Positions 87 through 58,681 of a stretch of DNA of 64,000 bases are shown here, piece by piece. The stretch comes from Myxococcota bacterium. Lineage in GTDB: Bacteria; Myxococcota_A; UBA9160; SMWR01. The stretch is from positions 1 to 64,000 of the forward strand of contig JBCCEW010000025.1 of the NCBI GenBank assembly GCA_039030075.1. Direction: 5' to 3'. The translations under genes were made by a program, and so were the position numbers. Numbering within the stretch: the stretch's first letter is position 1; every line of letters starts with the position of its first letter. The notes under the pieces were generated by a model. The model worked only from the letters and a program-made list of their open reading frames with translations, did not search any database and was not told the DNA's origin.

Positions 87-2192
87 GTGGCCATGCGGCG
101 ACCTAGCTCAATCGCTGCGGGTCGCGCCTGGTACGCGGCTGACCGTTCGAGATTCCTGGGCACGGACCAGGGCTCGATCGTCGCAGAGCTAGCCAGCTCA
201 GCCGCTTCGCAGGGCTGGCACGTGGAGAGTCAGCAACACCAAGAGTGGAGCGCCAGCGTCGGCATTCTGCAGAGTGAGATCCGTCAAGATATACCTGACG
301 AGATTGAGATTCTCCGGGATGCGCTCGAGGAATCCGGGCTTGCCGCCTACTCCGATGTGATTCTCGAGTACGACTTCAGGCGCCGGGGTCTTCGAATCGA
401 TTGCGTCCTCCTGGCCCCCGGCATGATCGCGGTCTTGGAGTTCAAGCGATCAAAACTCTCTGCGGCGGACGCGGATCAGGTGACGAACTACTGCGTGAAC
501 CTCGTAGAGTTCCATCAGGAGACGCGAAGAACCTGCGACGAAGAGTGCGCCATCGTCGTTCCGGTTCTTGTGCAGACCAATGGAGAGTTTGAGTATCGGG
601 GTCCCATCCGCGGCGAGTTTCTTTCGGAGCCATGGGCGCCCGTATTGCGAGAGCCGATTCGATGCGGGGGCGCAGACCTTGGAAAGGCTCTTCGTGATGT
701 TCTCGGGTTGAGGAAGGGGGCGACGGCGCTAAGCCGTGAAGCCTGGCTGTCGTCGCGGTTCTCTCCATCGTCGTCGATTCTCGACGCGGCGATCTCCCTC
801 TTTGGGGATCACGACGTCAGCGCGATCCATGAGCACGCCGGCTCAATCGAGCAGATCGAGTCCACCATCGTCGACGTGGCGGTTCAGATCGAACAGGCTC
901 GGGCGGGAAAGCGGAACACGGTCGTCTTCGTGTCGGGCGCCCCGGGTGCCGGGAAAACGCTGGTCGGACTGCGGCTCGCGTTCGACGAGCGGTTCCGCGA
1001 TGACGCAGTCTTCGTGACGGGAAACGCGCCCCTTGTCGACGTTCTCACAGAGGCGCTTAGGAGGTCCTACAAGAGGAGTGCTTCGCGCACCGTAGGCTCG
1101 ATCTCTGGATACCCGCGTGAGAACGCACGCCTGGTGATCGAGAACGCCGTGTTCAAGATCGTCAAGGCTCACAACTTTCTTGGCGAGCGAGGAAAGGAAA
1201 CTGCCTCGTCTGATGGCAGCATCGTGATCTTCGATGAGGCTCAGCGCACCTACGAGAAAGGGCGAGTAGTTGTCGGTCACCCCCTTGAGGATCACGAGGC
1301 GGATCTGATCCTGCACTCGTTGGAGCAGTCCTACGATGAAGGCGCCGTCGTTGTCGCCCTGCTCGGGCACAACCAAGCGATAAATCGTGGCGAGCGGGGT
1401 GCGATCGCGTGGCTGGAGGCTGCGGAGCGGCGTGGCTGGAACTACGCGATCTCGGACCCATCCCTGGAGCTAGGGGAGTTCGACGATCTGGCGCATTGGC
1501 GAGATCACCCGCTGCGAACGGTGCTCGATGCAGGTCACCTGCCCCATTCCCTTCGCTTCTATCGCAACCGCTTCGTGGAGGAGTGGGTTCACTGCGTGAT
1601 GGAGGATGACCAGATCGGCGCGCGCGTGCTGAGTGAGAGACTGGCAACTGAGGGACACCAGATCTGGATCACGCGAGATTTGCATGTGGCGCGAAGCTGG
1701 GCTCGCAATCACCGCGTGGGTGATGAGCGCGTCGGGCTAATCGCCTCTGGCCAAGCAAGGCGTCTCGCCGCAGAAGGGCTGTTCGTCGATCAGAAACCAT
1801 CCATTGCTCAGTGGATGCTGGCTCCGAGTGGCGATATTCGATCGTCGAATATGCTGGAGACTGTGCAGAACCAGTTTCAGATCCAGGGCCTCGAGCTGGA
1901 CTATACGGTCGTGTGCTGGGATGCCGATCTGCGGCGGGGCAAGGCGGGCTGGGAGGCTTGGAGGATCAGGGGAGGTGGCTGGCAGAAAAACAAGGCACTG
2001 GACGTAGCGAAGAACAGCTATCGAGTCCTTCTCACGCGGGCTCGGAAGGGAATGGTCGTGTTCGTACCCGAAGGGGATAGGAGCGGGCACGACGGCACCC
2101 GCCATCCGCGCTTCTACGATGGGATCGCGATGCACCTCCTGGCCTGTGGCGTCCGCAAGTTGCCGAGCGAGGATCAAGAAAACGAACAGTGA
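87..2192 (+). CDS. DUF2075 / Schlafen group 3-type nuclease-helicase
   Basis: This is a putative DNA/RNA helicase of the DUF2075 family, about 701 residues. Counting from the GTG at 87, a Walker A P-loop (GAPGAGKT) lies near residues 284-291 and a Walker B (IVIFDEAQ) near 379-386. Further helicase-like blocks follow, including NSYRVLLTRARKG near the C-terminus. The N-terminal region carries D105, then E118-F-K120, the D...ExK spacing of a PD-(D/E)XK nuclease, so a nuclease-helicase fusion is inferred. The start is uncertain: GTG at 87 and ATG at 93 are both weakly supported, and the frame stays open to the window edge. Proteins of this group are often found in defence or mobile regions, but no partner is visible here. 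Base composition looks less GC-rich than the neighbouring catabolic genes. Confidence 0.85.
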   Translation: MAMRRPSSIAAGRAWYAADRSRFLGTDQGSIVAELASSAASQGWHVESQQHQEWSASVGILQSEIRQDIPDEIEILRDALEESGLAAYSDVILEYDFRRRGLRIDCVLLAPGMIAVLEFKRSKLSAADADQVTNYCVNLVEFHQETRRTCDEECAIVVPVLVQTNGEFEYRGPIRGEFLSEPWAPVLREPIRCGGADLGKALRDVLGLRKGATALSREAWLSSRFSPSSSILDAAISLFGDHDVSAIHEHAGSIEQIESTIVDVAVQIEQARAGKRNTVVFVSGAPGAGKTLVGLRLAFDERFRDDAVFVTGNAPLVDVLTEALRRSYKRSASRTVGSISGYPRENARLVIENAVFKIVKAHNFLGERGKETASSDGSIVIFDEAQRTYEKGRVVVGHPLEDHEADLILHSLEQSYDEGAVVVALLGHNQAINRGERGAIAWLEAAERRGWNYAISDPSLELGEFDDLAHWRDHPLRTVLDAGHLPHSLRFYRNRFVEEWVHCVMEDDQIGARVLSERLATEGHQIWITRDLHVARSWARNHRVGDERVGLIASGQARRLAAEGLFVDQKPSIAQWMLAPSGDIRSSNMLETVQNQFQIQGLELDYTVVCWDADLRRGKAGWEAWRIRGGGWQKNKALDVAKNSYRVLLTRARKGMVVFVPEGDRSGHDGTRHPRFYDGIAMHLLACGVRKLPSEDQENEQ

Positions 2193-45107: not shown

Positions 45108-46007
45108 CTAGACGGACACCTGTCGCGACCGAAGCTGCTCTCGCATCCACTCCAGAAACACCCGCACGCGCGCCGTGACGAGACGCGATCCGGGATACAC
45201 GAGGCTGACCGGTCGCGGCGTGGGTTCGAAGTCGGCGAGCACCACCTCCAGGTCGCCCGATCGCACCATGGGGGCGGCCTGGTAGCCGAGGAGGAGGCAG
45301 AAGCCGAGGCCTTGCGCGCACGCTTCGGCGGCGACGAGCGCTTGATTGCAGGTGAACGCCGCCGGAGGTTGGACCGTCGCATCGTCTCCCTCGGCATCGA
45401 AGTGCCAGGTGCCGCTCGCTGTCAGCGGCTTGAAGTCGATGCTCGGACGCGTCTCGAGGTCCGCAGGCCGCAGCGGGGTTCCGACCTCTTCGAGCAGGCC
45501 TGGGCTCGCGCATACGACGCGCCGCATCCGCGCGACCGGGACCGCGATCATCGAGGAGTCGGCGAGGCTGCCGATCCGCACGGCGACGTCCACCGATTCC
45601 TCGACGAGATCGACCACGCCGTCGCTGAGCACGACGTCCACTTGAACGTTCGGGTACCGCTTTGCGAACTCGGCGACGAGAGGCGCCACGTGCCAGCTGC
45701 CGAAGACGACCGGGGCGGTGACGCGGAGCTGACCTCGCGGTTCGGCGGCCGCGTCGGTGAGCGCGGCCTCTGCTTCATCGAGGTCCGCGAGGATGCGGCG
45801 GCAGGCTTCGAGGAAGGTCCTGCCTTCTCCGGTCAGGGCGTGCCGGCGGGTCGTCCGCTGGATCAGCCGGACCCCGAGCTCGCTCTCGAGCTGGGCCAGG
45901 CCCCGAACCACCGTCGTCTGGGACCGCCCGAGCGATCGGGCCGCCGCGGTGAGACTGCCCTGATCGACGACCTCCACGAAGGTCTGCATCGCCGCGAGCT
46001 TGTCCAT
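45108..46007 (-). CDS. LysR family transcriptional regulator
   Basis: A 299-residue LysR regulator. The N-terminal winged HTH is FVEVVDQGSLTAAARSLGRSQTTVVRGLAQLE, followed by the periplasmic-binding-fold effector domain. Length is typical. It is divergent from a flavin-oxidase-like gene across 142 bp containing an inverted repeat, so that gene is its likely target. Confidence 0.9.
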   Translation of the reverse strand: MDKLAAMQTFVEVVDQGSLTAAARSLGRSQTTVVRGLAQLESELGVRLIQRTTRRHALTGEGRTFLEACRRILADLDEAEAALTDAAAEPRGQLRVTAPVVFGSWHVAPLVAEFAKRYPNVQVDVVLSDGVVDLVEESVDVAVRIGSLADSSMIAVPVARMRRVVCASPGLLEEVGTPLRPADLETRPSIDFKPLTASGTWHFDAEGDDATVQPPAAFTCNQALVAAEACAQGLGFCLLLGYQAAPMVRSGDLEVVLADFEPTPRPVSLVYPGSRLVTARVRVFLEWMREQLRSRQVSV

Positions 46008-47151: not shown

Positions 47152-50100
47152 ATGTCTCGAAGAAACCGAACGAACATTCCCGACGGAACCAACATCACGG
47201 TCACCACGAGTCGACGCGGGGAGCAGATCCGCGTCGACAAGGGTGATCGCGTCGAAGTCGACGGCGCACCCGCCGTCGTCCTCGACGACGATCGGAGCTC
47301 GCTCCGCAACGAGGGAACAATCGCGACGACGGGTGACACGGAGACGGTGCGTGTCGACGCGGATCGCGTCGCCGTGAAGAACACGTCACATGGCGCGATC
47401 GAGGCCGAGGACACGGCCGTCGAGATCACCGGCGAGCGCGCCTTCGTCGCGAACGACGGGCGCCTCGAGGGTGATGTCAACGGCGTGAACTTCGTCAACG
47501 GTGGCGAGTCCTCCGGGACGCTCGTGAATCGCGGTGTCATCGAGAGCGACAGTCGCGCCGTGAACATCGGCGGCGAGAACATCCTCGTCGTGAATCAGGG
47601 CGACATCATCGGTACCGGAGATCAGCGCAACGGCACCATCTACTCCGACGCGAGCGCCGAGCGCTACGCCATCGTGAACGACCACGGCGCCACGATCGAC
47701 GCCGGGGAAGGCAATCAGGGCGCGGGCATCGCTCTCCAGACGGGCGACGAAGACGGCGAGAGCGTGCGCGCATCGATCGTCAACCGCGGCGAGATCGACG
47801 GTCGCGGGCAGGCCGCTTCCAACGTGGGGCTTGCTGGCGACGGGATCCGCATCTTCTCGGGCACACCCGGCGGTGAGGACGAGAGCTTCCGCGGCAACCT
47901 CGTGAACTCGGGTCGCATCTCCTCGGAGAGCAACCAGGGCACGACGGCGGGCGTGCGCGTCGCCGACGGCGTCGGGTTCGACGGCACGATCGCCAATCAG
48001 CACGGCGGTGTGATCGAGGGGGCCAACAACGGCCTCTACTTCGGCAACGCCGAGCACGATGCGCGTGTGCTGAACGACGGGACGATCCAGTCGGACTCGC
48101 GGGCCGTCAACATCGACGGCACCGGCGTCGACCTGGTGAACCGCGGCGAGATCCTCGGCACGGGCAACCAGCGCAACGGCACGATCTACTCGGACGCCAC
48201 CGCGGACGACTACTCGATCGTGAACGAGCGCCACGCGACCGTGGACGCCGGAGAAGGCAACCAGGGCGCCGGGATCGCGCTTCAGACCGGGGACGTCGAC
48301 GGCGACACGGTCGAGGCTTCGATCGTGAACCGCGGAGAGATCGACGGTCGCGGCCAGGCCGCTTCGAACGTCGGCCTTGCGGGCGATGGTGTCCGGATCT
48401 TCTCGGGCACGCCGGGAGGTGAAAACGAGACCTTCGAGGGTCACCTCGTGAACTCGGGTCGCATCTCCTCGGAGAGCAACCAGGGCACGACCGCGGGCGT
48501 GCGCGTCGCCGATGGCGTCGGCTTCGACGGCACGATCGCCAATCAGCGCGGCGGTCTCATCGAGGGCGCGAACAACGGTCTCTACTTCGGCAACGCCGAG
48601 CACGACGCGCGCGTCGTGAACGACGGGACGATCCAGTCGGATTCGCGGGCCGTCAACATCGACGGCACCGGCGTCGACCTGGTGAACCGCGGTGACATCC
48701 TCGGCACGGACAACCAGCGCAACGGCACGATCTATTCGGACGCGACGGCGGACGACTACTCGATCCGGAACGAGCGCCGCGGGGACGTGGATGCCGGCGA
48801 AGGGAACCAGGGCGCGGGAATCGCATTGCAGACCGGCGACGTCGATGGCGACACGGTGCATGCGCAGATCGTGAACCGCGGCGAGATCGACGGCCGGGGG
48901 CAGGGGGCCGCGGACAGCGGACTCGCCGGCGACGGGATTCGCATCTTCTCGGGCACGCCCGGGGGAGAAGACGAGACCTTCGAGGGCTATCTGATCAACT
49001 CGGGCCGCATCTCCTCGGAGAGCACCCAGGGGCCGACCTCCGGGGTGCGGATCGCGAACGGCGTCGGCTTCGACGGCACGATCGCGAACCGGCGCGGTGG
49101 CTTGATCGAAGGGGCCAACAACGGCCTCTACTTCGGTGATGCCGCCCACGACGCCCGGGTGATCAACGACGGCACGATCCGTTCGGACTCCCGCGCCGTG
49201 AACATCGACGGCTCGGGCGTCGAGCTCGTGAACCGGGGCGACATCGTCGGCACCGGGAATCAGCGCAACGGCACGATCTACTCCGACGCAACCGCCGAGG
49301 ACTACCAGGTCGTGAACGAGCGCCGGGGGCTGGTGGACGCGGGCCATGGCAACGACGGCGCGGGGATCTCGCTCCAGACGGGGGACGAGAACGGCGACAT
49401 CGTCTCGGCTTCGGTCCGGAACTCGGGCCGCATCGTCGGGCGCGGGGACGGCGAAGGGAACCTCGAGGGCGACGGCGTCCGGATCTTCTCGGGCGCGAGC
49501 GAGGCACCCGATGGCGTGATCTTCCAGGGGGATCTGGAGAACTACCGCGACATCCTCGGCTCGGATGACGCCATCGACATCCGCGCGGGCGTGACCCTCG
49601 ACGGCGACATCGTGAATACGGGTCGTCTGGTGGGCGACGACACGGGCATCGAGATCACGGGAGCCGTGGACGGAGTGATTCGCAACCACGGCATCATCGC
49701 GGGCGGCCGCGCCGCCATCGATGCCTCCGAGGCCGAAGCCGGAGTCGAGGTCCTGAACCGGGGTCGGATCGACGGCGACGCCCTGCTCAGTGCCTTCGAC
49801 GACGTCTTCGTGAACGACGGTTTCGGCCGCATCCACGGCGACGTCCTCGGCGGTGCGGGCGACGACCGCATCGAGGGGGGGCGCTTCGGCGACCGTCTCT
49901 TCGGAGGCGCCGGAAACGACGAGCTCCGCGGAGGCGGCGGCGACGACTTCCTGCAGGGAGGCGGTGGCAGCGACCTGACCGACGGCGGCTCGGGGAACGA
50001 CACCGCGTCGTTCGCCGACATCGGGAGCAGCGTCACGGCGGACCTCTCGGAAGGAGAGGCGAGCTACGCGGCACCGAACGGCAACACGGTGACGGACCAG

Positions 50101-50415
50101 CTGGTCTCCATCGAGAACCTGGTCGGCTCGAGCAACGCCGACTCTCTGGCAGGCGACGAAGGGAACAACGTGCTCACCGGCGGTGACGGGGAAGACACCT
50201 TCGTCTTCCGGGCCAACGCCGGCCGAGACGTGGTGACCGACTTCGAGGAGGGAGACCGCCTCGACGTGAGTGACCTGTTCGACTCCGCGGAGGACGCGTT
50301 GACAGCGGCGCGTCAGGTTGGCGCCAACACGGTCGTGGACCTGGGGTCCGGCGACCGTGTCACGCTCGTCGGCGTGCAGGCTGACGACCTCGACGCGGAC
50401 GTGTTCCTCGTCTAG
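47152..50415 (+). CDS. RTX-type secreted protein with 182-residue beta-helix repeats
   Basis: A 1,087-residue protein without a Sec signal. Residues ~132-855 consist of four tandem repeats of about 182 residues rich in N-x-G-x-I motifs (VNRGEIDG, VNSGRIS, VNDGTIQ), suggesting a right-handed beta-helix as in adhesins. Residues ~898-955 hold GGxGxDxL nonapeptides that bind calcium (GGAGDDRIEGG, GGAGNDELRGG). A final RTX block near 1001 leads to a hydrophobic C-terminus typical of type I secretion signals (DADVFLV). The exporter ATPase and adaptor genes follow directly. GGAG precedes ATG 47152. It is probably an extracellular adhesin or surface-layer protein; toxicity is not supported by any enzymatic domain. 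Confidence 0.9.
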   Translation: MSRRNRTNIPDGTNITVTTSRRGEQIRVDKGDRVEVDGAPAVVLDDDRSSLRNEGTIATTGDTETVRVDADRVAVKNTSHGAIEAEDTAVEITGERAFVANDGRLEGDVNGVNFVNGGESSGTLVNRGVIESDSRAVNIGGENILVVNQGDIIGTGDQRNGTIYSDASAERYAIVNDHGATIDAGEGNQGAGIALQTGDEDGESVRASIVNRGEIDGRGQAASNVGLAGDGIRIFSGTPGGEDESFRGNLVNSGRISSESNQGTTAGVRVADGVGFDGTIANQHGGVIEGANNGLYFGNAEHDARVLNDGTIQSDSRAVNIDGTGVDLVNRGEILGTGNQRNGTIYSDATADDYSIVNERHATVDAGEGNQGAGIALQTGDVDGDTVEASIVNRGEIDGRGQAASNVGLAGDGVRIFSGTPGGENETFEGHLVNSGRISSESNQGTTAGVRVADGVGFDGTIANQRGGLIEGANNGLYFGNAEHDARVVNDGTIQSDSRAVNIDGTGVDLVNRGDILGTDNQRNGTIYSDATADDYSIRNERRGDVDAGEGNQGAGIALQTGDVDGDTVHAQIVNRGEIDGRGQGAADSGLAGDGIRIFSGTPGGEDETFEGYLINSGRISSESTQGPTSGVRIANGVGFDGTIANRRGGLIEGANNGLYFGDAAHDARVINDGTIRSDSRAVNIDGSGVELVNRGDIVGTGNQRNGTIYSDATAEDYQVVNERRGLVDAGHGNDGAGISLQTGDENGDIVSASVRNSGRIVGRGDGEGNLEGDGVRIFSGASEAPDGVIFQGDLENYRDILGSDDAIDIRAGVTLDGDIVNTGRLVGDDTGIEITGAVDGVIRNHGIIAGGRAAIDASEAEAGVEVLNRGRIDGDALLSAFDDVFVNDGFGRIHGDVLGGAGDDRIEGGRFGDRLFGGAGNDELRGGGGDDFLQGGGGSDLTDGGSGNDTASFADIGSSVTADLSEGEASYAAPNGNTVTDQLVSIENLVGSSNADSLAGDEGNNVLTGGDGEDTFVFRANAGRDVVTDFEEGDRLDVSDLFDSAEDALTAARQVGANTVVDLGSGDRVTLVGVQADDLDADVFLV
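47545..49182 (+). repeat. Three exact-period 546-bp tandem repeats
   Basis: Taking the Ser codon of SDSRAVNI as phase, units start at 47545, 48091, 48637 and 49183, exactly 546 bp (182 codons) apart each time. Units two and three are almost identical in DNA, and unit one is more diverged. A fourth, degenerate unit begins at 49183 and fades out near 49715. The identical spacing indicates recent in-frame duplication. Confidence 0.93.
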
Positions 50416-50425
50416 CGGAGGCCCC

Positions 50426-50458
50426 GGGGTGGAGGGGCTTCGGCAGCCCCTCCACCCC
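50426..50458 (+). terminator. Strong hairpin between RTX gene and exporter genes
   Basis: GGGGTGGAGGGGCT pairs perfectly with AGCCCCTCCACCCC (14-bp stem, 5-base loop TCGGC) just after the RTX stop. There is no T tract. It may act as an attenuator or mRNA stabiliser, keeping the substrate mRNA abundant while letting some read-through into the secretion genes. Confidence 0.65.
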
Positions 50459-50517
50459 ACTCGCCGGATCTTCCGCGATTCACTCGACGGCCCGGCCAAG
50501 AGAAAAGGAACCACCCG

Positions 50518-52248
50518 ATGAACGCCAAAGACGCTTCTCTCGGAGCGATGCTCCGCGACGCCAGGCCGGCCCTCCTGGGCGTGGCCGCCTTCAGCTGCGT
50601 CGTGAACGTCCTGATGCTCGCGAGCCCGCTGTACATGATGCAGCTCTACGATCGGGTCCTCCCGAGTCAGAGCGTTCCGACGCTGATCGCGTTGTCTCTC
50701 TTGCTCGTGGGCGTCGTCGCCGTGGTCGGCGTCTTCGAGTTCCTGCGATCCCGTGTGATGGTGCGGTTGGGACTCGGCCTGGACCAGCGCGTGGCGAGCC
50801 GCGTCTTCGAGGAGATCGTCGAGCGCGAGCCGCGGTCGGGGGCGCAGCATCGCGACCTGCCCCTACAGGACCTCGCACAGCTTCGCGGGTTTCTGACCGG
50901 GCCCGGCCTCTTCACCTTCTTCGACGCGCCCTGGGTCCCTATCTACCTATTGGTGATCACGCTCCTGCATCCGCTTCTCGGCGCGATCGCGCTCGCCGGC
51001 GCGGTCTGGCTCTTCGGGTTGGCGCTCGCGAGCGAGCGATGGACGCGGAAGCCCCTCGAAGCCGCGGCCGAAGCACAGGATCGCGAGTCCGCGTGGGTCG
51101 AGAGCGTACGGCGCGGCGCGGACACCCTGATCGCGATGGGCATGACCTCCGGCGCGAAGACGCGCTGGCACCGCGAGCGCGAGGAGACCCTGCAAGGGCA
51201 GGCGTTCGCGTCGGATCGCGCAGGTCTGCTCGCCGCGGTCTCGCGCTCGTCTCGTCTGCTGCTGCAGTCCGCCATGTTGGGGACCGGGGCGGCGCTGGCG
51301 ATCCAGGGCAGCGTCAGCGCGGGCGCCATGGTGGCCGGTTCGATCCTGCTGGGTCGAGCGCTGTCTCCCGTCGAGCAGGCGATCGCGCACTGGAAGAGTT
51401 TCCTTGCGGCGCGCCGAGCGCATCGCCGGTTGGCGGCCCTCGTCGGCGAGGCCGCCGAAGAGAACGGCGCGCTGCGACTGCCTGCACCGTCGGGGCATCT
51501 CGCGGTCGAAGGCGTCACTGCCGGACCGCCGGGTGCGCGCCGCGCGACCCTGAAGCAGGTGCGGTTCGCACTCGAGAAGGGAGAGGTGCTCGGGATCATC
51601 GGCAAGAGCGGGGCCGGGAAGTCCACGCTCGCGAAGATCCTGGCGGGTATCTGGACACCGCAGCAAGGTGAGGTCCGCCTGGACGAGACCTCGCTCGCCC
51701 ACTGGCACCCCGACGACGTATCCCGCGCGGTGGGGTACCTCCCGCAGCAGATCGAGCTCTTCGAAGGCACGGTGCGCGACAACATTGCGCGCCTCGACCC
51801 CGACGCGCGCGACGAGGAGATCCTGCGGGCCGCAAAGCTGGCCGGCGCTCACGAGCTGATCGCTCACCTCCCCGACGGCTACGAGACCGAGATCGGCCGA
51901 GACGGAATGAGCCTCTCGGGAGGACAGCGACAGCGCATCGCGCTCGCGCGCGCCCTCTATGGCTCCCCCTCAGTCGTGATCCTCGATGAGCCGAACTCGA
52001 GCCTCGACGCCGAGGGCGACCGCGCCCTGACGCGCGCCATCGAGGCGCTCAAGGAACAGGGCAGCACCGTCGTCGTGATCGCACACCGCCCCAGCGCGGT
52101 GGCTGCGGTCGACCGCGTGCTCGTGTTGGAGAGCGGCAAGGTGGCCGCATTCGGACCGCGGGACGAGATCATGAGCCCGCGCGGCGCCAAGGCTTCCACG
52201 GTCCGAACTCGATCGAACGTCCGCCAGCTGGAGAGGGCCCAGGCATGA
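50518..52248 (+). CDS. Type I secretion ABC transporter (PrtD-type permease-ATPase)
   Basis: A 576-residue fused exporter. The N-terminal membrane domain (about residues 18-300) is followed by an ATPase with Walker A GKSGAGKS (about 362-369), signature LSGGQRQRIALARAL and Walker B VVILDEPNSSLD. It lacks an N-terminal C39-type peptidase domain, as PrtD-type RTX exporters do. AAGGAA precedes ATG 50518. Its stop overlaps the adaptor ATG. It should export the upstream RTX protein. The outer membrane TolC partner is not encoded nearby. Confidence 0.93.
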   Translation: MNAKDASLGAMLRDARPALLGVAAFSCVVNVLMLASPLYMMQLYDRVLPSQSVPTLIALSLLLVGVVAVVGVFEFLRSRVMVRLGLGLDQRVASRVFEEIVEREPRSGAQHRDLPLQDLAQLRGFLTGPGLFTFFDAPWVPIYLLVITLLHPLLGAIALAGAVWLFGLALASERWTRKPLEAAAEAQDRESAWVESVRRGADTLIAMGMTSGAKTRWHREREETLQGQAFASDRAGLLAAVSRSSRLLLQSAMLGTGAALAIQGSVSAGAMVAGSILLGRALSPVEQAIAHWKSFLAARRAHRRLAALVGEAAEENGALRLPAPSGHLAVEGVTAGPPGARRATLKQVRFALEKGEVLGIIGKSGAGKSTLAKILAGIWTPQQGEVRLDETSLAHWHPDDVSRAVGYLPQQIELFEGTVRDNIARLDPDARDEEILRAAKLAGAHELIAHLPDGYETEIGRDGMSLSGGQRQRIALARALYGSPSVVILDEPNSSLDAEGDRALTRAIEALKEQGSTVVVIAHRPSAVAAVDRVLVLESGKVAAFGPRDEIMSPRGAKASTVRTRSNVRQLERAQA

Positions 52249-53552
52249 ACGCAGAGAACTCGGATCGGATCGAGGTCTCGACGGACACGAAGCCGTACGT
52301 GAAGGGCGGCCTGCTGGGTCTGCTCGGACTCGCGGCAGCGTTCATCGGCTGGGCGACGCTCGCCGAGCTCGACGGCGCCGTCATCGCGCCGGGGAAGGTG
52401 GCCGTGGAGGGCAGCCGGAAGACGGTGCAAGCCACGGGCAGCGGCGTGGTGAGCGAACTGCTCGTTCGCGACGGCGAGCACGTCACAGAGGGTCAGGTGC
52501 TCGTGCGTATCGACCACACGGTCAGTCGCGCCGTCCACGAGAACGCGCGCGCGCGCTTCGAAGCACTGCTCGCAGCCCAGAGTCGACTCGACGCGGAGCG
52601 CTCGGACGCCACCACGATCACATTCGGAGAGGAGCTATCGAGTGGCGAGCCCAGCGCACAGCGCGCGATCGAGACGGAGGAGGCGCGATTCCATGCGCGG
52701 CGCGAGGAGCGTCGGGCGGCCCACCGGGCGATCGAGGCGCGGATTCCACGACTCGAAGCGACCCGAGGCGGTCACCGGGCGCGCTGGGAAGCGGCCCGCA
52801 TCGAAGCGAGCGCGGTGCAGGAAGATCTCGAGAGTGCCCGGGCGCTGTTCGATCGCGGCTATCTCTCGAAGACCCGGCTGCGCGCCCTCGAGCGAGACCA
52901 CGCGCGTGCCAGAGGCCAGGCCGCGAGCAGCCTCGCCGAGGCGAACAGCACCGCGCAGGAGATCGAGGAAGCGCGCCTGGAGCTGGCCCACGCCGAAAGC
53001 CAGTGGCGCGAGCGGGTGACCAGCGAGCTCGAGACGACGCGGCGGGCGCTCCTCGACGCGCGACGGGCGCTGGTCGAGGCCGAGCGCGGTCTCCACTACA
53101 CCGCCGTGCGCGCCCCGACCACGGGCCATGTCTTCGGACTCGCCGTCCACACGGAGGGGGGCGTGGTGCGCGAAGGGCAGGAGCTGCTTCAGATCGTGCC
53201 CGACGAGGCTCCGTTGATCGTCGAAGCGCGGATCCCGGTGCACGAAGTCGATCGCATCTCCCAGGGACAGTCGGCGCGCGTGCAGTTGACCGCGTTCGAT
53301 GTGGAGACGGTCGCGCCGGTCGAGGGCACGGTCGAGTCGATCTCGGCAGACCGTGTCGAGGATCCCGCGCTTCGCACGGGCTTCTACGTCGCTCGCATCC
53401 GCATCGAACACGCGGTGGCGAACCTGTCGAGTGTCGAACTCCGCGCGGGCATGCCCGCGGAAACCTGGATTCGGACCGGGCAGAAGAGCGCGGTTCGATA
53501 CCTGATGGAGCCGCTCACGAGCAGCTGGGAACGGGCCTTCACCGACGGGTAG
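52245..53552 (+). CDS. Type I secretion periplasmic adaptor (HlyD/PrtE family)
   Basis: A 435-residue membrane fusion protein. One N-terminal helix (GLLGLLGLAAAFIGWATLA) precedes the first half of the lipoyl domain (GAVIAPGKVAVEGSRKTVQATGSGVVSEL). A long Glu/Arg/Ala-rich coiled coil covers about residues 85-285. The second lipoyl half (LHYTAVRAPTTGHVFGLAVHTEGGVV) and the beta-barrel domain end it. The ATG overlaps the ABC gene stop (ATGA). Confidence 0.93.
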   Translation: MNAENSDRIEVSTDTKPYVKGGLLGLLGLAAAFIGWATLAELDGAVIAPGKVAVEGSRKTVQATGSGVVSELLVRDGEHVTEGQVLVRIDHTVSRAVHENARARFEALLAAQSRLDAERSDATTITFGEELSSGEPSAQRAIETEEARFHARREERRAAHRAIEARIPRLEATRGGHRARWEAARIEASAVQEDLESARALFDRGYLSKTRLRALERDHARARGQAASSLAEANSTAQEIEEARLELAHAESQWRERVTSELETTRRALLDARRALVEAERGLHYTAVRAPTTGHVFGLAVHTEGGVVREGQELLQIVPDEAPLIVEARIPVHEVDRISQGQSARVQLTAFDVETVAPVEGTVESISADRVEDPALRTGFYVARIRIEHAVANLSSVELRAGMPAETWIRTGQKSAVRYLMEPLTSSWERAFTDG

Positions 53553-53616: not shown

Positions 53617-54054
53617 ATGCAGTCGCCCTCGTCTGCGACTGATGTCGCCAGGAAGCTGCGTCGGCTTGCCGCGAGCGCGGGGTCCGTGGCGTGCGAGGAG
53701 CAAGGCGCTCGACTGCTGCTGGGTGTGGGCGATCTACTGGAGCTGCCGATCGCGTTCTGGGTCGGCCGGCTGTCCCGCCGGAGTCGAGAAGACGAGCGCG
53801 CGACCATCGCGTCCTTGTGTCGGCCGGAGACGAGAATGGCCGAGAACTGGGATCGCCATTGTGTCGCGGCCGATGTAAGTACGAGGCACCGCAGGAGCTC
53901 TTCGGGGGCTTTCAAAAAGAAGAGATCGATCAGTCCAATGGCTTACCGGCCGGGTGGTCAACGCCTTCCCTTCTCGCTGATCCCACCTCGACGTAGTGCG
54001 ATCTCGGGCAGCGCTCGGATCACCCAGACCGGCCCAGAGCCGTGGTTATCTTGA
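53617..54054 (+). CDS. Uncertain small ORF in the 516-bp gap
   Basis: The 516 bp between the adaptor gene and the next operon hold one open frame of 145 codons with GAGGACC just before its ATG. The first ~60 residues look protein-like (ATDVARKLRRLAASAGS..., VGDLLELPIAFWVGRLSRR) but the rest is Arg/Ser/Pro-rich and resembles a shadow or decayed gene. No family recognised. It may be a gene remnant at the border of the unrecognised operon. Confidence 0.25.
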   Translation: MQSPSSATDVARKLRRLAASAGSVACEEQGARLLLGVGDLLELPIAFWVGRLSRRSREDERATIASLCRPETRMAENWDRHCVAADVSTRHRRSSSGAFKKKRSISPMAYRPGGQRLPFSLIPPRRSAISGSARITQTGPEPWLS

Positions 54055-54074
54055 GCGTAGAACCGACGCTACGC
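54055..54074 (-). terminator. Inverted repeat at the end of the unknown operon
   Basis: GCGTAG (54055-54060) and CTACGC (54069-54074) are complementary arms with an 8-base loop, overlapping the stop of the membrane-anchored protein gene. There is no T run on the minus strand, so it is a weak terminator candidate. Confidence 0.3.
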
Positions 54075-54599
54075 ACAGATCGCAACGTGCGTCGTTGCGG
54101 CAACCTCAACATCAGACAACCAAACTCGCCCATCGTTCCGAAGCCGATAGATCTGCTCGATGAACTCGTGGAACCCAAACGAGCGGTGTACCAGCGACCA
54201 AACCTGAGCCGCCGTGGGGTCGCGGTCGTCGCTAGACGCAGCGATGGTCGCCTCCAAGATCGCGTCACAAACGGACTCGGTTCGAGCAGAAGCGCCGCGA
54301 CTCGACCCCACTCGCACATCGGTCTGACCGCGGAGGGCGCGATTCGAGGGGTGCGGAGGCTGAAGCACTCTCATGACTACGTCTCGCATCATCGCAAAGA
54401 CCTCTTCCTCATGAGAGCTTCTCTCATCAAGAAGTGCCCGCATCTCCGAAAGCGCAACGGCCGCTTTCTGGTTGAGCCAGAACCCACAGACCAACGAAAG
54501 CACGCCAACCAGCAAGGCGACTGCACCCACTACTAACCCTAGAAAGCTCGAGAGGCCTCCCCAGATCGAAACAGTCTCGACGTTCAGAAATTCAGCCAA
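54069..54599 (-). CDS. Small membrane-anchored protein, unknown operon gene 3
   Basis: A 176-residue protein with one N-terminal membrane helix (WGGLSSFLGLVVGAVALLVGVLSLVCGF), then a likely coiled segment (NQKAAVALSEMRALLDERSSHEEE) and a soluble tail. The start is TTG at 54599, supported by AGGAGGTGA directly upstream; that ribosome-binding site overlaps the stop of the preceding gene. No family recognised. It could anchor the helical-repeat protein to the membrane. Base composition is less GC-rich than the catabolic genes nearby. Confidence 0.7.
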   Translation of the reverse strand: MAEFLNVETVSIWGGLSSFLGLVVGAVALLVGVLSLVCGFWLNQKAAVALSEMRALLDERSSHEEEVFAMMRDVVMRVLQPPHPSNRALRGQTDVRVGSSRGASARTESVCDAILEATIAASSDDRDPTAAQVWSLVHRSFGFHEFIEQIYRLRNDGRVWLSDVEVAATTHVAICA

Positions 54600-54602
54600 G
54601 GT

Positions 54603-57473
54603 TCACCTCCTGACCTTTGATCCCGTGTGCACTGGCAGCAGCCCTGCGCTGCACGCTAGGTCCTTCAAGTCGTCGCCGAGGGCTTCGAGCTGCTCACGCC
54701 CAAAACGCCGCTCAATAAGTCGGCGAGCATGTAGCGCCGCCCCCTCGGCAATCGCCTTGTTCGCGGGCGACGCACTTGAAGCGATCGCGGTCGCTTCGAT
54801 CGCCTCGCGGAGACTCTTGCCGGCCTCATCGATCGAGAGTTCGATGCTGCCCAGCGTTCCCCGCGCTCTGGCAGAGTCAATCAACGTATGAATCCGATCT
54901 CTGGGGGCGTCGATACGGCTGAACAGCCTTCCCGCTCTCCTCAACGATCTCTTCGCGTGCCTAAGGTGCTCCGACGTCTGGGTCATCTCGCCGAGCGCCA
55001 ACTGACACTGACCCATGAGGTGAATCGACCGCGCCAGCTCAAGGGGACGTCTTCGGACACCAAAGCCCTCTACGGCCTTGTTCGTGTAGGTAATCCCAGC
55101 TCGATACGCGAAGACGTCGGCTCCCGTCTCTCCGACTGCGAACTCCACGCGCGCCAGGCCAAGAATGGCAAGTGCCCATCGCGCCGACTGTCCAGCCCTT
55201 CCAGACCTGGACAACGCCCTGGCGAGTTCCTGTCGTGCATGCGCAAAGCACTCTCGCTCGTCAGAGACCAGTCCAATCAGCCGGTACACATCGCCGGCAA
55301 CGAGATCACACGCGATAGAAATGCCGGGGCTCTCTTCGGCGCTGACGAGGCCCCGTGCTCGCTCGACGAATGAGAGAGCTCTTTCCGCCATTCTAGTAGT
55401 CGCATCTGCAAGCTTCGCATCCGGCTCCTTGCGAGTCGCCCACGGGCTCCGCATGGCACCGCGAGACAGACGGCCAAAGGAGTCAGTCATCGCGAGCTCC
55501 CATTGAAGCTGCATCGCTCGAGCAGACCGGACGAAGCAATCCGCTGCGAAATCGGTCTCGCCAGTCTCGAGGAACTTGTTGCCCGCTGTCACCAAGAGCC
55601 GGTCGGCAGGACCTAGATGATCGGCATCTCCGGTGAGTTCTCCGAGCGAGACCCGGGTGGAACCAAGTTCGCGCAACGCCATCGGTGTGGGCGCTTCGAT
55701 GGCGCTAAGTGTCTCAAGGCACCACTCGTTAAGTTGCAGTGCTCCTTCAAGCATTGCGCGGTTTCCGCATCGCCAACCCTCGGCGCGAGCGGCTCGTCCG
55801 AGCGCTAGAGCGCGTTGGCTCCACAGCCGCGGTTGGAGATTCCGATCTGTGTTGCGTTCGGCGGTGCGAAGGTCCGCGATCAGGCTCGTACGCTCACTCC
55901 GCGCGACCACAGAGTTTCCACGTCTCTTCTTCGGCTGCGTCCGCGATTTCGCCCGCTCGTCCAAGAACAGCGCGATCGCCGAAGGGATCCGAAGCGCTGT
56001 CGGCTCGTCGAGTCGGATTGGGGAGCTCCGGGTCGGTGACATGCTGGCAGGGATCGCCAGCGCGAGTCCGGCTCGCTTAGCCACTTCTGATTCCATGAAG
56101 GTCGCGCCGGCCGAATCCGAGACCTCTCTGTACACCGACTCCATGAGTAGACACTCAGACAACCGGGAGCCTCCGTCCTCTGAATAGATGCGCTGCGAGA
56201 GAGCGGCCGCTACCGGGTCGAACGCCTCACCGGTTCGCTCCAGAGCAGTTCGCACCTTGAACAGCAACAGCCGAAAGAGGCAAGACGCGAGCAATGACGC
56301 CATGGACTCTCCAGCGTTGCACTCACGAACTAGCGCGAATACATCCTTTGTCTCTTCGACGTCGCTGAGGATCTTGGCAGCTATTCCTTCGGAGATCGGT
56401 CTGTCCGCATCGGTTGCTCGCGACCAGCACAAGGAGAACGAGTCGTGTGCAGATGAGAAGATGCGTTCGATCCGATCGGCGCGATCTACTCCCGAACCGC
56501 GCGAGTCGTAGTTTGCCTCGATCAGGCCAACGCGAAGTTGAGCGTGCGTCTGTCCTAGAGCCCAGAGCGCAGCATGGGCGTGTTCGGGAAGCGTTCGTTT
56601 GCGTGCCGCGGCGGAACAGACAGAAGCCGCAAGGTCTACGACGTTGGGACGCGGACTGTCGGTCATGAACGACAGAGCGAGCGCCAAGTGAAACGTGTCG
56701 GATTCTACGAACGAATGCTCGAGAAGCGACGCGTACCAATTCTTGAACAGCGCTTCGAGGTCCGCGAACCCAGCCACTTGACCTCCGATCCTGGAAATCA
56801 CTCGGGCTTGTCGGAGGGGGTCACCATGGATCGCCGGGCTTGCTGTGGACGGAAGCCCCTCGCTGATTCCCGCGAGTACGGCCTTCACGATACGCGCTCG
56901 TTCCACCGCGTCAGAAAGTTGGTCGATCGCGAGAGACACCACCATTTCAGGCGCGCACCCTGCGATGAGGGCCGAGGATGTGTCATCGAATGGCGAGGCG
57001 AGGGCCGCGGAGATGGACGCGGCGAGGTTGTGTTCGCTTGAAGCCGTGCGGTCCTCGATACGGAGTTCATGGAGGAGGCTCTGGCGGGACTGATAGATCG
57101 CGTTGAGCCAGGGAGCGTTTGAGGCGAACGAGTCTGAGAAAACGCCCGTAGCGCGAATCTGCGTAAGGCCCGCTTGCTCCTCACACAATCTCCCAAGTGC
57201 GGCGGCAAGCGCTTGCTCGGGGGCTCGTGTCGTCGACACGAGCGCCGCAACCGGCTTCCGAGGGAGCCAAGCTACGTCGCTCACCCGTAGATGCGTAGGC
57301 CTGTCCGTTCCACTGTCGACGTGGACGTCGGATGGGCGCACCAGAGGAAGCGTGTCCATCGGGGCCACTGCGACAAGGCTGCGGTCCGCCACGTCCGCAA
57401 TGATGACCCATCGGATCAAGTCTTCTGAGCGGGAGAGGCGAAGGATACGTCCGAACACGGTTGATGTGGTCAT
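54603..57473 (-). CDS. 956-residue helical-repeat (TPR-like) protein, unknown operon gene 2
   Basis: A large protein with no catalytic motif that I can see. The N-terminal ~250 residues are mixed alpha/beta (TVFGRILRLSRSEDLIRWVIIADV...). Helical segments dominate afterwards. From about residue 560 the pattern of paired helices (LWSQRALALGRAARAEGW..., LGPADRLLVTAGNKFLETGETDFAADC, ELARSIHLMGQCQLALGEMTQTSEHL) suggests TPR-like repeats used for protein binding. A basic linker (RTQPKKRRG) lies mid-protein. ATG 57473 has GGAG upstream and is two bases after the stop of gene 1. It could act as a scaffold. Confidence 0.75.
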   Translation of the reverse strand: MTTSTVFGRILRLSRSEDLIRWVIIADVADRSLVAVAPMDTLPLVRPSDVHVDSGTDRPTHLRVSDVAWLPRKPVAALVSTTRAPEQALAAALGRLCEEQAGLTQIRATGVFSDSFASNAPWLNAIYQSRQSLLHELRIEDRTASSEHNLAASISAALASPFDDTSSALIAGCAPEMVVSLAIDQLSDAVERARIVKAVLAGISEGLPSTASPAIHGDPLRQARVISRIGGQVAGFADLEALFKNWYASLLEHSFVESDTFHLALALSFMTDSPRPNVVDLAASVCSAAARKRTLPEHAHAALWALGQTHAQLRVGLIEANYDSRGSGVDRADRIERIFSSAHDSFSLCWSRATDADRPISEGIAAKILSDVEETKDVFALVRECNAGESMASLLASCLFRLLLFKVRTALERTGEAFDPVAAALSQRIYSEDGGSRLSECLLMESVYREVSDSAGATFMESEVAKRAGLALAIPASMSPTRSSPIRLDEPTALRIPSAIALFLDERAKSRTQPKKRRGNSVVARSERTSLIADLRTAERNTDRNLQPRLWSQRALALGRAARAEGWRCGNRAMLEGALQLNEWCLETLSAIEAPTPMALRELGSTRVSLGELTGDADHLGPADRLLVTAGNKFLETGETDFAADCFVRSARAMQLQWELAMTDSFGRLSRGAMRSPWATRKEPDAKLADATTRMAERALSFVERARGLVSAEESPGISIACDLVAGDVYRLIGLVSDERECFAHARQELARALSRSGRAGQSARWALAILGLARVEFAVGETGADVFAYRAGITYTNKAVEGFGVRRRPLELARSIHLMGQCQLALGEMTQTSEHLRHAKRSLRRAGRLFSRIDAPRDRIHTLIDSARARGTLGSIELSIDEAGKSLREAIEATAIASSASPANKAIAEGAALHARRLIERRFGREQLEALGDDLKDLACSAGLLPVHTGSKVRR

Positions 57474-57475
57474 GG

Positions 57476-58483
57476 CTAGCTGCTCCGCATGTACTGCTTG
57501 ATGGCCGGCATTCCGGCCATCTCGTCGATAGAAATGCGCGCCAGAGCTTTGAGGTAGCCCTGGTAGGTTCGCTCGGTCACCCCCAGTCGAGCCGACTCGG
57601 CAGTGGGGTGTCTTCCCGAAGTCGCACCGTAGAGAGTCAAGAGAAGTCGGGCTTTGCGGTCCCATTGCGCGGCTGAACTCTTGATGAATACCGAGACGCG
57701 CGCAGTCAGGATTTCTCGGATTGCTCTTGGCAAGAAGCGCTGACGCTCGATCACTGACTCGATGGCCGTAGCGGACTCACGCCGCGCGCTGGGTATCGCG
57801 GCTTGTTCCGTTGCACGAAACCGGATCACGGCAAGAATCGACGACCTCATGAACTCACGAAGTGTGAACTCTTCGGCCCCGGAGGTGCGCAGCGAGTCCA
57901 CGAGGGTGCGCGAGTGACGATCTTGCTCTGGGTCGATCAGGGTGATTGGCTCGGCCGAGAGAGCGAGGTGCGACAAGGTCGGCCATACATGTCGGGGGAA
58001 GTCGATCGCACCGTGAGATGTACAGCCGTTCGAGTCGGGGAAGCGAATGGCGGAATCGTCGCGGATCGCGTCCCCGTCTGGCTTTCCTCCGTCGACCTCA
58101 AGAGTTTGCGTCATACACTGCGCAAGAAGCCACTCGTGGGAGAATCGGGTGAAAGCCTGGATTTCCGGGGAGAAGACGCGGAGGCGGTGACCGACCCAGT
58201 AGTCGACGTAGAACTGGAGCGCCGCATCGGCCGAGCGACACTGGTCGATATCGTTGAGAATCGCGACACGAGCTCGGAGGAATTCATCGGCGAGCTCTCG
58301 CCCAGCTGCTTTGCGAGCTCGAGCCCCGAGCGTTTCTCCATCACCTAGCCCCAAGAGAACGGCGGGCTCAATACTCGAGCCCAGGATCTCAGTTAGATCG
58401 TTCGAGACAATGGAGGTAAGTGCTTCAGGGTCAGTTCGCCTACGAAGGTGTCGCGTGATGACGTCCGCTATCCGAGTGTCCAT
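57476..58483 (-). CDS. Protein with C-terminal HTH-like segment, unknown operon gene 1
   Basis: A 335-residue protein, first of the three-gene operon. No family recognised. Near the C-terminus (about 285-320) the segment KARLLLTLYGATSGRHPTAESARLGVTERTYQGYLKAL resembles a helix-turn-helix, as in sigma-factor region 4 or LuxR-like domains. The remainder is helical with many Arg and Asp. AAGGAA precedes ATG 58483. It may be a regulator or nucleic-acid-binding component. The two downstream genes follow with 2-bp and coupled spacing. Confidence 0.7.
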   Translation of the reverse strand: MDTRIADVITRHLRRRTDPEALTSIVSNDLTEILGSSIEPAVLLGLGDGETLGARARKAAGRELADEFLRARVAILNDIDQCRSADAALQFYVDYWVGHRLRVFSPEIQAFTRFSHEWLLAQCMTQTLEVDGGKPDGDAIRDDSAIRFPDSNGCTSHGAIDFPRHVWPTLSHLALSAEPITLIDPEQDRHSRTLVDSLRTSGAEEFTLREFMRSSILAVIRFRATEQAAIPSARRESATAIESVIERQRFLPRAIREILTARVSVFIKSSAAQWDRKARLLLTLYGATSGRHPTAESARLGVTERTYQGYLKALARISIDEMAGMPAIKQYMRSS

Positions 58484-58552
58484 TGCGAGTTCCTTTTCGT
58501 ACTTCGCTCGGTGCTGCAGGGAGTCGCCGTGCAGTAGGTCCAAGAAAACGAA

Positions 58553-58580
58553 AAGGCCGGGGCGCGTGCGCCCCGGCCTT
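58553..58580 (-). terminator. Rho-independent terminator upstream of the unknown operon
   Basis: AAGGCCGGGGCGC pairs perfectly with GCGCCCCGGCCTT, separated by two bases. On the minus strand it is followed by TTTTCGTTTTC, so it should end transcription coming from the alpha/beta hydrolase gene (58682-59521) and isolate the unknown operon, which would need its own promoter in 58484-58552. Confidence 0.75.
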
Positions 58581-58681
58581 CAGTACTCCGAACTTACCGC
58601 GAACCATGCGCAGGTCCGCGCATACCTGTCAAGCCTCAATTCCACCGTCTGGACGCGCTCGGATGCGTCTACCGACCGGGG

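Follow-up and report, generated by a model that had tools for sequence, protein, structure and literature searches.

Three genes lie head to tail on the minus strand of the 64,000-nucleotide stretch of Myxococcota DNA analysed here (contig JBCCEW010000025.1; hereafter the window). The initial annotation had described them as tightly coupled, and all three open reading frames are present as reported: gene 1 (57476..58483) runs from an ATG at 58483 to a stop at 57476 and encodes 335 aa, gene 2 (54603..57473) from an ATG at 57473 to a stop at 54603 (956 aa), and gene 3 (54069..54599) from a TTG at 54599 to a stop at 54069 (176 aa). Only 2 bp separate genes 1 and 2, and 3 bp genes 2 and 3, a spacing which suggests that the products are co-translated partners. 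The ribosome-binding sites of the operon genes are plausible, and the Shine-Dalgarno sequence AGGAGGTGA (54599..54612, minus strand) that precedes the TTG of gene 3 does overlap the stop of gene 2, as had been noticed. The upstream neighbour of the operon is an alpha/beta hydrolase gene, downstream of which sits an intrinsic terminator (58552..58581, minus strand) of 13 pairs, 10 of them G-C. This strong terminator, earlier named as one boundary of the block, is real and, from its position, would both end the hydrolase gene and insulate the operon. The operon start is therefore expected in the 68-bp leader that follows (58484..58551, minus strand), which also carries the ribosome-binding site of gene 1, AAAAGGAA. 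No sigma-70 consensus promoter was found in this leader, an absence that says little for this organism.

The composition of the block departs from that of its surroundings. The GC content of the three genes is 0.59-0.62 compared with 0.67-0.73 in neighbouring genes, and the GC profile runs at ∼0.61 from roughly 53,850 to 58,600 against 0.67-0.75 on either side. At third codon positions (GC3), no other called gene of the 42 in the window has a value as low as those of the operon genes (0.655-0.677), the median being 0.85. This ranking is approximate, since the genes were called with a simple heuristic that is biased towards high GC3; the annotated neighbours, however, lie at 0.84-0.89, a contrast that is independent of the caller. 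The tetranucleotide distance of the block is 0.316, where the window median is 0.139, and it exceeds that of every sliding 4.4-kb window, making the block the strongest tetranucleotide outlier in the window. These measures agree with the earlier impression of a less GC-rich, possibly acquired segment. Because the lowest GC3 coincides with the strongest tetranucleotide deviation, we consider acquisition from another lineage to be well supported and the simplest reading of these compositional data.

A gene remnant had been proposed next to the operon at 53617-54054. This proposal was not supported: the segment has no Pfam match, and its second half is without coding periodicity, with GC2 above GC1. 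Neither a tRNA, an Rfam RNA nor a long flanking direct repeat was found. Of the flanking genes, the one for HlyD lacks a close counterpart within the family, where weak and partial matches alone were detected, in 4 of 16 other genomes; for the GST gene there are many paralogues. The HlyD-type protein belongs to a region at 47152-53552 (plus strand) in which an RTX-repeat protein is followed by an ABC transporter and the HlyD-type protein, and which resembles a type I secretion cassette. Between 45000 and 51400 the dinucleotide distance rises to ∼0.1 (median 0.037), for which the repetitive RTX gene may be responsible. A gene at the start of the window (87-2192, plus strand) encodes 701 aa, including a Schlafen group 3 DNA/RNA helicase domain, and its product matches the PADLOC candidate defence family PDC-S41 (E 2e-161); only the operon genes have a lower GC3 than its 0.717.

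Gene 2 had been put forward as a large, probable TPR scaffold, a description that fits one part of the protein. Residues ∼560-935 have the character of TPR-like helical repeats, whereas searches gave no family assignment, TPR or other, for residues 1 to ∼540. Three lines of evidence bear on the C-terminal part. An internal repeat scores 65 in Smith-Waterman comparison, the maximum among 300 shuffles being 51; a Pfam fragment scan returns a weak TPR_9 match (E 0.0055), its 17.1 bits falling below the Pfam cut-off of 35; and the model computed for residues 540-956 from the single sequence is helical throughout, with a mean pLDDT of 46 and better values at ∼620-760. Foldseek matches of this low-confidence model are mostly TPR proteins (LGN, KLC1, Pins and Rap) at E ∼0.006-0.04, none of them below E 0.001. 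Taken together, the repeat, the TPR_9 match and the helical model with its mostly TPR matches make it likely that the C-terminal part is TPR-like. Gene 2 would nevertheless differ from the TPR proteins it resembles in its sub-threshold score and in its additional 540-residue N-terminal part, a comparison to be read at the low confidence of the model.

Gene 1 is mostly helical by prediction and, as the initial annotation had indicated, carries an HTH-like motif near its C-terminus (LGVTERTYQGYL, residues 300-311), which we take to resemble the HTH of sigma region 4 or LuxR regulators. When the protein was shuffled 20,000 times, the pattern recurred in 3 cases. It was chosen after the sequence had been seen, however, and we therefore regard the motif-level call as suggestive only. 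Gene 1 is the sole match to the pattern among the called genes of the window, which is no evidence in its favour since the pattern is narrow and misses the true Pfam HTH of a LysR-type regulator at 45108-46007. Pfam reports no HTH domain in gene 1, nor did its fragment scans to E 10 give a sigma-factor-like match. Gene 1 also differs from regulators of the sigma region 4/LuxR type in having no recognisable N-terminal regulator domain, and its AlphaFold model (pLDDT 37) is unreliable. The membrane helix reported for gene 3 is clear by hydropathy: there is one strong N-terminal helix at about residues 17-41, with a mean hydropathy of 2.76 over 19 residues, followed by a soluble tail for which there is no family assignment.

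That the proteins could not be assigned to a family, as the initial annotation had stated, was borne out by four profile libraries: Pfam, NCBIfam, PHROGs and PADLOC matched none of the three convincingly, and neither did PDB sequences; for the PADLOC defence profiles this extends to E values up to 1. Walker A, HExxH and HxxHD motifs are absent from all three, as is any Pfam NTPase. Genes 1 and 2 have no credible homologue in 91 genomes of the class, and none of the three genes has one in 284 sampled genomes of the phylum; a 378-genome phylum sample overlapping the latter yielded nothing for gene 1, a result that shows little, there being no known-matching genome in the set. When 84,980 species genomes were scanned by pattern, no relative of gene 1 or 2 emerged, and no relative of any of the three was found by pattern scans of viral contigs or by tblastn of phages and plasmids. 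The pattern scans can detect close relatives alone, and in the genome searches few candidates were scored in each genome, so that distant relatives may have been missed.

A few candidates were set aside. For gene 1, a match to L006 runs antisense to a gene of cysteine-rich repeats, and for gene 3 a match to L033 (E 9e-5) is in an alternative frame and overlaps a second long ORF; both were taken as chance. The match between gene 2 and L005 reflects a generic similarity of the TPR type. Other matches at E 0.001-0.01 were as numerous as chance would give when hundreds of genomes are searched. The operon, of which one copy was found across all searches, is a real orphan gene cluster with no relatives detected in the collections searched. 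Its parts appear to be of known kinds (TPR-like, HTH-like and membrane anchor), while the combination of these orphan sequences is apparently new, a limited literature search having found no report of it.

The explanation we favour, though tentatively and at less than even odds, is that of a horizontally acquired, lineage-orphan accessory operon encoding a membrane-tethered TPR module that controls an HTH regulator. The single helix of gene 3 would act as an anchor at the inner membrane; the TPR-like half of gene 2 would serve as a scaffold binding gene 3, gene 1 or both, with its N-terminal half perhaps a sensing part; and gene 1, through its C-terminal HTH, would provide the DNA-binding output. 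We infer that gene 2 sequesters or releases gene 1, although the direction of control, like the interactions themselves and DNA binding by gene 1, is putative. In Rap-type regulators a TPR protein controls a DNA-binding partner. The structural match of gene 2 to proteins of this type (for example, pLS20 Rap; E ∼0.02) offers a working analogy only, since no sequence similarity was detected and both architecture and operon differ. The reading draws on the tight gene spacing, the TPR-like region of gene 2, the HTH-like motif of gene 1, the membrane helix of gene 3 and the foreign composition. A scaffold or regulator also fits the missing Walker A, HExxH and HxxHD motifs better than an enzyme does, and the lack of Walker A and of common metal-hydrolase motifs makes an NTPase-driven system mildly less likely. 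Against such a regulatory module stand the lack of any homologue of known function, the poor gene 1 model, the missing Pfam HTH and the dependence of the Foldseek matches on a model of low confidence.

A somewhat less probable reading is a fast-evolving anti-phage or conflict cassette, in which gene 2 would be a TPR-like sensor, gene 3 a membrane effector and gene 1 the component that represses or triggers the system. Foreign composition, single occurrence, the absence of close relatives and the presence of TPR-like and membrane components would all fit such a cassette, conflict systems combining parts of this sort are described (PMC7159879), and the Schlafen-type candidate defence gene has a similarly low GC3. 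That gene is, however, the only defence candidate noticed and lies 52 kb away, the near flanks being ABC/HlyD/RTX secretion and metabolic genes. The operon proteins moreover differ from known anti-phage systems in matching no PADLOC family, from STAND/NTPase conflict systems in the want of a P-loop domain, and carry no common effector motif. A defence role for the operon is possible.

The compositional anomaly and orphan genes would also suit cargo of a decayed phage or integrative element, serving the element and without a host role; we think this rather unlikely, given that neither a tRNA, a long flanking direct repeat nor a phage or plasmid homologue was found. No better placed is the proposal that the proteins are divergent members of known families (a sigma-factor-like regulator and its TPR partner, for instance), related to these too faintly for searches with one sequence to reveal it. 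The limited sensitivity of such searches, the putative sigma region 4/LuxR-like motif of gene 1 and the TPR-like region of gene 2 speak for it, whereas the lack of any such match in the Pfam fragment scans of gene 1 to E 10 speaks against it. We give similarly low credence to a three-component system of new families, in which an orphan HTH-like regulator, a TPR scaffold whose 540 N-terminal residues would be a new part, and a membrane-anchored partner would constitute a new kind of signalling or conflict module in bacteria.

With one copy and putative functions, the operon remains a lead. If its proteins do work together, they would make up a coupled set for which the collections searched contain no detectable relative in sequence, an unusual situation for a protein of 956 aa; if true, this would suggest that the donor belongs to an unsampled lineage and that a signalling or conflict system has escaped the profile libraries.
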